From contig NZ_KB913031.1 in assembly GCF_000384155.1 (NCBI RefSeq), positions 2,846,961 to 2,910,960 on the forward strand: a DNA stretch of 64,000 bases. The letters are read 5' to 3'. Source of the DNA: Methylophilus sp. 42 (GTDB lineage: Bacteria; Pseudomonadota; Gammaproteobacteria; Burkholderiales; Methylophilaceae). Shown in pieces: positions 9,209 to 10,955 of this stretch (positions are counted from its first letter, which is position 1; every line of letters begins with the position of its first letter). Position numbers and translations under genes: made by a program. Below the pieces are notes generated by a model that saw only the letters and a list, made by a program, of their open reading frames with translations, had not been told where the DNA came from and did not search any database.

Positions 9209-10150
9209 TTAAGCTTTAGCAGCGCTTGCTTCGGAGATAGGCGGCGTACTCTCCAAACTCACTGCCATCACTCCCACTAACACCAAAGCGGTGCCCATAC
9301 CCTGTATCCACGACACCGTTTCGCCAAGAAATAAATACGCCAGCACAATCGTCGCGACTGGCCCAACCGCACTAATCAGTGCTGCCTTGCGGCTACCCAA
9401 CTGATGAATCCCTAGGTTCATCAACACCGCAGGCAATACCGTCGCAATCAATGCCATCAGTAAAGCCAGCACATAAACCGCTTGTGGCTGCCCGATCATG
9501 GCCGTGAATGAACCACTGGCCCCAAAGTGGCAGCCGCTGGCTAACGCCGCAAGGGTCATGGTGAGCGCCGTAAACCGGCTAGCACCCAGCTTGGGAATCA
9601 ATTGGCCACTCCCCAACAGGTAACCTGCATAGACAATCGCACTCAGTAACACCAGCCAGGCGCCATACAGCGTCTGCTGCGAGCCCAGACCTGCAAGCTC
9701 CACATCATGCAACACCACTAACACCACGCCTGCATAACTGGTCACCATAGCAAACCACTCACGACGCGTAATCGTGTGTTTGAGGAATACCGCGCTCATC
9801 GCTACCACAAGTGCGGGGTAAATAAACAGAATCACCCTTTCCAGCCCGGCCGAGACATAACGCAACCCTTCAAAATTCAGCCACATCGAGCCATAACCAC
9901 CGACGGTGGCTAACACCAGCAGAGACAGCCAGTCTTTGACGCTCATGGTCAGTGGTGTATCTTGTTGCATCGCCCACCAGCCCAACCCGATAAAAAACGG
10001 CATAGCAAACGCCATACGCAACGCAATCAAGGTCTCCGTATCAATGTGATAGACGTAAGCCAGCTTGACCATGATCGCTTTCGACGAAATGGCCACGGAC
10101 GATATCAGTACCAGCATGGCACCGTAATACGGATGGGTAGAATCTTTCAT
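9209..10150 (-). CDS. EamA-family (DMT) transporter, possible metabolite exporter
   Basis: This 313-residue protein has ten hydrophobic helices in two EamA repeats (about residues 12-150 and 160-295). Family members export amino acids or related metabolites; the type member of Escherichia coli exports cysteine and O-acetylserine. The substrate here is not proven. However, the region in front of the gene contains what looks like a cysteine-codon leader peptide and exclusive RNA helices (10151-10362), which would fit a cysteine-pathway exporter. The ATG at 10150 has a weak ribosome site (aggg) that lies inside a hairpin. Confidence 0.85.
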   Translation of the reverse strand: MKDSTHPYYGAMLVLISSVAISSKAIMVKLAYVYHIDTETLIALRMAFAMPFFIGLGWWAMQQDTPLTMSVKDWLSLLVLATVGGYGSMWLNFEGLRYVSAGLERVILFIYPALVVAMSAVFLKHTITRREWFAMVTSYAGVVLVVLHDVELAGLGSQQTLYGAWLVLLSAIVYAGYLLGSGQLIPKLGASRFTALTMTLAALASGCHFGASGSFTAMIGQPQAVYVLALLMALIATVLPAVLMNLGIHQLGSRKAALISAVGPVATIVLAYLFLGETVSWIQGMGTALVLVGVMAVSLESTPPISEASAAKA

Positions 10151-10151
10151 A

Positions 10152-10175
10152 TGAGCCCTGAATCAATGGGGCTCA
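10152..10175 (-). promoter_or_regulatory. Hairpin covering the eamA ribosome-binding site
   Basis: Read on the minus strand, tgagccc (10175-10169) pairs with gggctca (10158-10152) around a 10-base loop. The 3' arm contains the only Shine-Dalgarno-like bases (ggg of aggg) before the eamA ATG at 10150, so the folded form would hide the ribosome site. Confidence 0.5.
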
Positions 10176-10196: not shown

Positions 10197-10247
10197 CAAC
10201 CGCGGAGAGCCCGCGGTTGCAAAAGAATTACGACAAGCAGCAACCGC
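10197..10247 (-). promoter_or_regulatory. Mutually exclusive helices of a probable attenuator upstream of eamA
   Basis: On the minus strand, segment 2 (gcggttgc, 10247-10240, inside the leader's Cys codons) can pair with segment 3 (gcaaccgc, 10220-10213). Segment 3 can instead form a perfect 9-bp hairpin with segment 4 (caaccgcgg 10219-10211 with ccgcggttg 10205-10197, loop gctct). This 2:3 versus 3:4 choice is the layout of leader-peptide attenuators. The 3:4 hairpin is not followed by a U-run, so it may act other than as an intrinsic terminator. Confidence 0.55.
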
Positions 10248-10323
10248 AGCACGATGTGGCGACTAGCCACAATGCCTTTCGGTTCATCACCACAACAGTA
10301 GATTGGAGGAATTGCTTGTTCAT
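10228..10323 (-). CDS. Candidate cysteine-rich leader peptide upstream of eamA
   Basis: A 31-codon frame starts with ATG at 10323 and ends with TAA at 10228; a second in-frame ATG at 10287 would give 19 codons. Codons 24-31 encode SCCGCCLS: four cysteine codons within five, just before the stop. The promoter at 10334-10362 would put the transcript start about 4-5 bases before the first ATG, making the message almost leaderless. Poly-cysteine, often leaderless, small ORFs act as cysteine-responsive attenuators in mycobacteria. Here the Cys codons form one arm of an alternative helix, and the gene downstream is an EamA-family exporter. The reading is by sequence alone. Confidence 0.5.
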   Translation of the reverse strand: MNKQFLQSTVVVMNRKALWLVATSCCGCCLS

Positions 10324-10333
10324 AAGTTTATGG

Positions 10334-10362
10334 AATTTACGTGGGTTTGGGAGAATGGTCAA
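10334..10362 (-). promoter_or_regulatory. Predicted promoter for the eamA leader
   Basis: On the minus strand TTGACC (10362-10357) and TAAATT (10339-10334) are separated by 17 bases, a fair sigma-70 match. The predicted start of transcription is near 10327. Confidence 0.5.
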
Positions 10363-10399
10363 GGGAACTGTTTAATTTATATGTGTGTTCAATACTTTT

Positions 10400-10955
10400 C
10401 TTTTCGCCTCTAGGCGAGTCACTTTCTGATGTTTGCCCCTCAGAAAGTAACCAAAGAAGAGGGCACCCAGCCATCACGGCCTGACGGCTGCCTTGCGTTG
10501 CTCAACAAAATAAGCGGTCACGAAACTCGCCCTGACAAGCCACACAGAACGTGGCTTGTTGCGGAGCTCAGACAGTCGCTCCCTCAACTCTTATTTTGTT
10601 TCCGCTACTCAGCGTGATGGGATGGGATTTGTCTCGTCAAACGACCATTAGTGAAAATTTAACGGAAGCATAATTCTTCAGCTTTGCCGATAATCACCAA
10701 GAATGGTGGCGCTCACGTGGTGTTCGGGGACCCCATCTGCCGCGCCGAGCAACGCAGGGTTGGCGGGAGCTTTCGGCCATCGGCTGTCCGAGCTCCGCAA
10801 CAAGCCACGTTCTGTGTGGCTTGTCAGGGCGAGTTTCGATGGACGCCCGGCAAGCCGAGTAGCACAGGATAAAAGCGGAAGCTGGGGTGCATTTCTTTTG
10901 GTTACTTGTTCTTTGTGCAAGCAAAGAAAAGTAACTCGCCGAGAGGGCGAAAAGC
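10400..10955. repeat. Composite inverted-pair repeat, locus 1
   Basis: This 556-base intergenic block consists of a left arm (10400-10642) and a right arm (10718-10955) in opposite orientation, around 75 unshared bases. The best-kept part is a perfect 49-bp inverted repeat, 10521-10569 with 10790-10838. The same two arms occur at 28128-28745, with an unrelated centre. Each arm carries a small tcgcc/ggcga-type hairpin at its outer end, a second outer hairpin (10421-10448; 10909-10928) and an inner hairpin acaagccac/gtggcttgt. Frames crossing it are not convincing genes. It resembles dispersed non-coding repeats seen in many proteobacteria; its function is unknown. Confidence 0.9.

Follow-up and report, generated by a model that had tools for sequence, protein, structure and literature searches.

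A probable ribosome-dependent switch with a conserved tryptophan codon upstream of EamA-family transporter genes in Methylophilaceae and related families

In attenuators of the E. coli trpL type the control codon lies in segment 1 of a leader transcript that can form either of two mutually exclusive helices, 2:3 and 3:4. Other leader ORFs are connected to their targets in different ways. Stalling in the E. coli toiL-topAI uORF frees a sequestered ribosome-binding site with which toiL pairs directly, in response to several classes of antibiotics (PMC12121999), and in Sinorhizobium meliloti the trpL/rnTrpL transcript starts at the ATG of a leader ORF with Trp codons and acts by transcription attenuation of trpE(G) (PMC7298713). 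The actinobacterial LEU element ties leader codons to the Shine-Dalgarno box (PMC1262725), whereas Cys codons near the stop characterize the actinobacterial cys leader ORFs (PMC1262725) and the Cys-rich uORFs of mycobacteria (PMC4633059). No conserved terminator-like hairpins are reported for the mycobacterial cys leaders (PMC1262725). In Bacillus subtilis the leader peptide BmrB controls the ABC transporter BmrCD, transcriptionally and upon induction by antibiotics (PMC4191407).

The leader described here, found upstream of an EamA-family transporter gene (eamA), shares with the trpL type the two exclusive helices and a similar computed stall profile, and its putative control codon likewise lies in segment 1. 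It differs in that the output would be translation of eamA, through a choice between the pairings L:5 and 5:6 and without a terminator in the DNA of the locus studied, in that a transporter gene rather than trp biosynthesis would be controlled, and in that the leader has one or two Trp codons. From toiL it is set apart by a relay of 2:3, L and segment 5 and by a conserved Trp codon. The proposed start of the transcript at a leader ATG recalls S. meliloti, the link between leader codons and a Shine-Dalgarno region recalls the LEU element, and Cys codons near the stop are shared with the cys leaders; the actinobacterial and mycobacterial elements precede other genes and use other codons. By analogy, the mode of action would be that of trp-type ribosome-mediated attenuation with a translational output, apparently in a new variant. 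Among the full-text matches listed, in a coverage that takes in few subscription papers, no such element upstream of EamA genes was found.

The locus was studied in a 64,000-nt stretch of Methylophilus sp. 42 (contig NZ_KB913031.1; hereafter the window), in which the whole leader and eamA lie on the minus strand. A promoter (10334..10362; TTGACC at 10362-10357, 17 nt, TAAATT at 10339-10334) is separated by 10 nt from the ATG (10323-10321) of a leader ORF of 31 codons plus stop (MNKQFLQSTVVVMNRKALWLVATSCCGCCLS; 10228..10323), of which the peptide ends in SCCGCCLS before TAA. Segment 1 (10266..10284) contains the Trp codon TGG (10269-10267), and the core of hairpin 1:2 joins GTGGC (10270-10266) to GCCAC (10260-10256). 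Segment 2 (S2; 10239..10250) has the core GCGGTTGC (10247-10240), located within the Cys codons and encoding Cys-Gly-Cys. Segment 3 (GCAACCGCGG; 10211..10220) can pair with segment 2 or with segment 4, the stretch GCAACCGC (10220-10213) beginning 7 nt past the leader stop. The 9-bp hairpin 3:4, CAACCGCGG-GCTCT-CCGCGGTTG, occupies 10219-10197 (coordinates rechecked); its closing arm is segment 4 (10197..10205), after which no T-run follows. Segment L (10206..10214), made up of GCGG and the loop GCTCT, resembles the ribosome site of eamA: the loop region reads GGGCUCU and the Shine-Dalgarno region AGGGCUCA, and either can pair with the GAGCCC element of segment 5 (TGAGCCCC; 10168..10175). The partner of segment 5 is thus L or segment 6 (AGGGCTCA; 10152..10159), the Shine-Dalgarno region of eamA (9209..10150; PF00892, E 3.9e-34). 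Searching with the EamA protein gave five named relatives, all of them Methylophilus.

The promoter, the 31-codon ORF, both alternative helices and the downstream EamA gene had been located at these same positions in a sequence-only reading, which had missed the element linking 3:4 to eamA, i.e. the loop, GAGCCC and the Shine-Dalgarno region. The window leader folds better than 200 of 200 dinucleotide shuffles (z -3.54). The promoter match by itself is within chance (3 found, 1.9 +/- 1.4 expected), and the promoter gains its credibility from the conservation of the leader across genomes, not from the motif. Since the gap between the -10 hexamer and the ATG is just 6-10 nt in 51 of 59 leader contexts (relaxed promoter-ATG pattern), the leader ORF probably starts at the 5' end of the transcript or a few bases inside it, which would make it leaderless or nearly so.

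Just upstream of the promoter, at 10394-10450, an interspersed repeat of about 50 bp is present; a query that holds it matched the genome at 29 sites, 28 of which are confined to that stretch. Nested inverted repeats extend from 10445 to 10907, with 58-nt arms that are 97% complementary (10521-10578 and 10781-10838) and 27-nt arms that are 74% complementary (10445-10471 and 10881-10907), and are perhaps a non-autonomous mobile element.

It appears very probable that the region upstream of eamA is a ribosome-dependent translational switch. A ribosome that has started at or near the 5' end of the transcript and is slow around the Trp codon of segment 1 would leave segment 2 free to pair with segment 3, so that hairpin 3:4 is prevented and loop L released. 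Released L would capture segment 5, which would open the Shine-Dalgarno region in segment 6 and allow translation of eamA (ON). A ribosome that has moved past the Trp codon would cover segment 2, upon which 3:4 would form, L would be hidden and 5:6 would shut the ribosome site (OFF). With no ribosome at all, 1:2 could hold segment 2, and 3:4 would again form (OFF). In this scheme we infer that 1:2 is a working part, and likewise the kinetics, the sign of the response, Trp as the signal and the usefulness of transport under Trp shortage. The complete model, a ribosome-mediated attenuator made up of segments 1 to 6 and acting on eamA translation, is one that we slightly favour.

The leader is found well beyond the window. 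Its DNA was matched in 18 of 101 genomes, the window's own counted, and in an alignment of 12 close genomes of the same genus the promoter, the W codon, S2 and an invariant hairpin are common to all. One of these twelve, G007 (L014), differs by 4 nt in length downstream of the first ATG, which places the Trp codon out of that frame, perhaps by an assembly error, by decay or because a later ATG is used. An EamA match at E <= 1e-45 was obtained in 44 of the 187 family genomes, and reading together with a script located the leader upstream of EamA in 33 of them. No leader was seen upstream of EamA in nine (G018, G033, G048, G025, G037, G051, G137, G039 and G181), and in G169 and G180 the gene match is partial, with the upstream DNA outside the leader count; G180 has a covariance-model match on a different contig. 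In G039 (L028) a promoter-like pattern and a nearby ATG precede EamA, by eye without a Trp codon or hairpin.

Covariance model R1, built from 21 leaders, matched 29 of the 187 genomes of the family and 18 of the 399 from the order, and R2, built from 39, matched 32 of 399 order genomes and 6 of 369 class genomes (own included), never more than once per matching genome. At 14 further loci an EamA-like ORF follows, as judged by eye (only partial in G132 and G465). Among 17 more model-matched loci, tblastn identified EamA in 9, the remaining 8 being G084 and seven weak matches with E >= 0.0019. Nine weak model matches (E 0.0019-0.0088) were dropped, none of the seven that were read having an adjoining EamA, as was G084 (E 7.3e-6), in which a leader-like match (GTG start, KRRWLPL) was present and no EamA was found. 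One good match, G874 (E 1.1e-16), lies outside the order. It has the leader (L146) and an EamA that is 52% identical to that of the window, closer than those of the members of the order in the same comparison, and horizontal transfer is possible. A search of plasmids gave no match. The leader thus recurs in front of EamA orthologues in the Methylophilaceae, in other families of the order and in one genome outside it.

For the comparison of pairing, 31 representatives with a mutual similarity below 0.80 were drawn from 57 of the 59 leaders collected, G132 and G007 being left out and the hairpins of G050 and G134 being assigned by hand. When the own partners of each helix were compared with swapped ones in 5000 permutations, none of the permutations reached the observed value for 2:3 (z -5.4), L:5 (z -6.8), 5:6 (z -6.5) or 3:4 (z -9.9). 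Six controls with unrelated regions gave z between -0.5 and 1.7 and the reversed-partner controls -1.3, -2.2, -0.9, 0.1 and 0.3, the value of -2.2 (74 of 5000) belonging to L against reversed segment 5. For 1:2, of which the 5' side hardly varies, the swap test gives no significance among the 31 representatives (z -0.3); covariation is present in its core hairpin. Words common to L and the ribosome site are longer for the leader's own site than for the sites of others (4.77 versus 3.80 nt; 0 of 5000), and the two elements change together, with GGGCUC in the window, GGGUCUU in G029 and GGACUUUA in G087. Because in 30 of the 31 segment 5 also pairs with the segment 3 arm, over 3 nt or more, and in 29 its L site and its Shine-Dalgarno site have 4 nt or more in common, the helices 3:4, L:5 and 5:6 compete. 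The Shine-Dalgarno region lies in the alternative helix 5:6, as in a translational attenuator.

In an alignment of 39 leaders, which was fitted to the structure, both sides change in 12 of 20 pairs (7.5 +/- 1.3 in shuffles, 1 of 500 reaching this number), and the covariation score of 0.238 exceeds the 0.119 of the shuffles (0 of 500) and that of every slid version. Only 70.8% of the cells of this fitted alignment are paired in helix 5:6. Synonymous recoding, a weak test with codon use pooled from the leaders themselves, marked 2:3 as unusual (p < 0.05) in only 6 of 31 (mean z -1.1; window p 0.44). In L092-L105, leaders from outside the Methylophilaceae, a central mismatch is frequent in 3:4, e.g. 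C over A, which perhaps tunes 3:4 against 2:3. Taken as a whole, the comparison of sequences supports the predicted leader, W codon, 2:3, 3:4, L:5 and 5:6.

The strong conservation of the RNA would also suit a ligand- or protein-binding RNA with an unread ORF, a reading to which we give very little credence. The frame over W is kept while the frame over S2 varies, and the spacing between promoter and ATG is retained in those 51 of 59 contexts. Neither the window nor 20 related loci gave an Rfam match at the gathering score, and at E up to 5 one chance miRNA family appeared; a known RNA family or riboswitch was rejected on this ground, which likewise speaks against a binding RNA. A transcription terminator was rejected for the window, since no U-run follows 3:4. 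In 5 of 58 leaders (G132 left out) at least four U in a row occur near the end of the hairpin, directly after the stem in G074, G394 and G247, and in those five a terminator is possible.

The conserved residue of the collected leaders is Trp, located in segment 1, rather than Cys. Each of the 59 leaders has at least one Trp, a W having been demanded by the leader-finding scripts. In the search with the relaxed promoter-ATG pattern, which made no such demand, all 51 fitting ORFs contained a W; this search is not fully independent, since the contexts had been cut around the first, W-based choice. With the same demand at collection, 41 of 41 Trp codons in the 31 representatives are no more than 3 codons away from the segment 1 position, against 0 among 665 other codons. 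G522 and G232 have another residue in place of the usual first Trp and keep the next one, and the opposite holds in several other leaders. The N-terminal part of the peptide is, by eye, not conserved, while Trp is kept. In TnaC the distance from Trp to the stop is fixed; here it ranges from 8 to 16 residues, which rules out a TnaC-like spacing. From these sequences, the signal of the attenuator would be Trp, i.e. a shortage of charged Trp-tRNA, in our estimate with a little better than an even chance.

Leu occurs in all 31 representatives and is enriched near W (29.5% versus 8.6%). It is found within positions -3 to +4 of W in 31 of 31 and before W in 27 of 31, and K and R are enriched there as well, so that Leu, or an adjacent Arg or Lys, might be the residue that is sensed, the Trp codon being held mainly through the pairing 1:2. 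We regard this as improbable: Leu is a common residue, the residue preceding W may be K, V or M, and the first base of the W codon is U in 31 of 31, although in 15 of 31 local folds it stands opposite G, with which C would form the better pair.

Cysteine had been proposed as the signal in the sequence-only reading, according to which Cys shortage would stall the ribosome in segment 2, favour 3:4 and lower expression of the exporter, and plentiful Cys would raise it. Of that proposal a leader-peptide attenuator with the mutually exclusive helices 2:3 and 3:4 ahead of eamA is supported, and neither Cys as the signal nor the blocking of 3:4 by a stop-bound ribosome is. In favour of the Cys reading, three to five Cys are kept in the 12 close relatives, and segment 2 is indeed covered when the ribosome stands on the Cys codons. 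However, the alignment of relatives that had been suggested as a check retained the 2:3/3:4 pairing, whereas the Cys codons are lost or in another frame beyond Methylophilus and its near kin. Among the 31 divergent leaders, Cys is absent from 7 and occurs once in 13 (20 of 31 with 0-1 Cys); in G031 the scripted start is probably too far upstream, and with the nearer ATG, which leaves no Cys, the Cys-free leaders become 8 of 31. Over all 59 leaders the count is 0 in 10, 1 in 17, 2 in 7, 3 in 14, 4 in 10 and 5 in 1. Of the 12 close relatives, 4 have Arg in place of the second Cys, a change that converts a G-U pair of 2:3 into G-C.

The CCGCC codons are confined to Methylophilus and near kin and are located within the 2:3 segment. 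In the window S2 (GCGGUUGC) is read as UGC GGU UGC; in some lineages it is translated, by eye, as Cys-Arg-Gly and in others as Ala-Ala-Val, with W staying in frame. Measured against the W codon, the start of the computed 2:3 duplex falls in each of the three frames (15, 12 and 4 of 31), which makes the Cys codons appear to be a side effect of S2. With the ribosome on any of the window's Cys codons (each 0.00), the computed 2:3 pairing is the same as with one at the stop (0.00-0.01), so that Cys shortage would give no contrast, and with a ribosome at the stop the computed fold still keeps 7 of the 9 bp of 3:4. The Cys model is consequently very unlikely in our view.

The effect of ribosome position was computed on transcripts truncated ahead of segment 4, in which the bound ribosome was represented by masking the stretch from -16 to +13 about the A-site codon. 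Truncated transcripts were chosen because equilibrium folding of full-length transcripts with a masked ribosome failed to separate the states. The 2:3 measure is the summed pair probability divided by the expected pairs and can exceed 1. Its mean over 31 leaders is 0.49 with no ribosome, 0.97 with the ribosome on W and 0.16 at the stop; values above 0.5 are reached in 31, 15 and 3 of 31 with the A site on W, no ribosome and the ribosome at the stop, respectively. Three footprint sizes had little effect (above 0.5 in 29, 31 and 31 of 31 on W, and in 7, 3 and 1 at the stop). E. coli trpL, treated in the same way, gave a plateau of 0.96 over K8-R12, which includes both Trp codons, and 0.10 without a ribosome.

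When the transcript extends through segment 4, 2:3 exceeds 0.5 on W in just 6 of 31, and the values for trpL with the ribosome on its Trp codons drop to 0.31 and 0.37. In full-length transcripts at least 4 bp of 3:4 persist in the minimum-energy fold in 27 of 31 without a ribosome, in 23 with the ribosome on W and in 23 at the stop. The mean Shine-Dalgarno exposure is then 0.38, 0.38 and 0.40, respectively, and moving the ribosome from the stop to W raises it in 4 of 31 and reduces it in 6. As the states are thus not resolved at full-length equilibrium, a working switch would have to be kinetic.

In the window alone the 2:3 measure is 0.77-1.04 with the A site anywhere on codons 2-22. Such a broad response is what would be expected if the leader were a general sensor of translation stress like E. 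coli toiL, in which any ribosome arrested within about the first 22 codons, e.g. by an antibiotic, would open the eamA site. EamA would in that case act in efflux, and the Trp codon would owe its conservation to something else. There are precedents in toiL (PMC12121999) and bmrB (PMC4191407), and the reading suits an exporter. We nevertheless hold it to be unlikely, though less so than sensing of Leu. Averaged over the 31 leaders, the profile has its maximum at W-3 to W+2 (0.87-0.97), stalls farther upstream giving less (0.57-0.75 at W-15 to W-6), and Trp is kept while, by eye, the N-terminal part is unconserved. From W+6 on the averaged measure is near nil (at most 0.06 at W+6 to W+12, 0.11 at W+13).

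Under the Trp attenuator that we prefer, ON at low charged Trp-tRNA would be the natural reading, which would be at odds with export of Trp. This sign fits uptake or exchange, or else an efflux pump induced by translation stress. The eamA product has a predicted fold (mean pLDDT 79.1) that matches DMT proteins, the best PDB matches being SLC35B1, the choline importer LicB, 5i20, which we take to be YddG, and other DMT proteins. A sequence search with the product found LicB only (E 0.012), and the NCBIfam matches are weak for YddG (30.6 bits; cut-off 300) and amount to 67.8 bits for TIGR00950 (cut-off 230.2). A dedicated Trp permease (PF03222) was found in none of the 25 genomes of the genus and family that were searched and scored above the cut-off in 1 of 41 overall, an uninformative result.

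Finally, we tentatively suggest that these leaders form a new family of Trp-responsive attenuators in the Methylophilaceae and related families, in which a loop copies the target ribosome site, competes with it for one strand and switches on a DMT/EamA transporter at Trp shortage. If so, the transporter would serve uptake or exchange of Trp or a related compound and would not be the exporter that had been assumed earlier. The leader is a compact and well-supported RNA switch that has no match in the copy of Rfam searched, and a loop imitating the ribosome site may be a way to relay ribosome stalling to the translation of the next gene. It also offers a handle on the substrate and direction of an EamA/DMT transporter, as the starving signal should point to the cargo.
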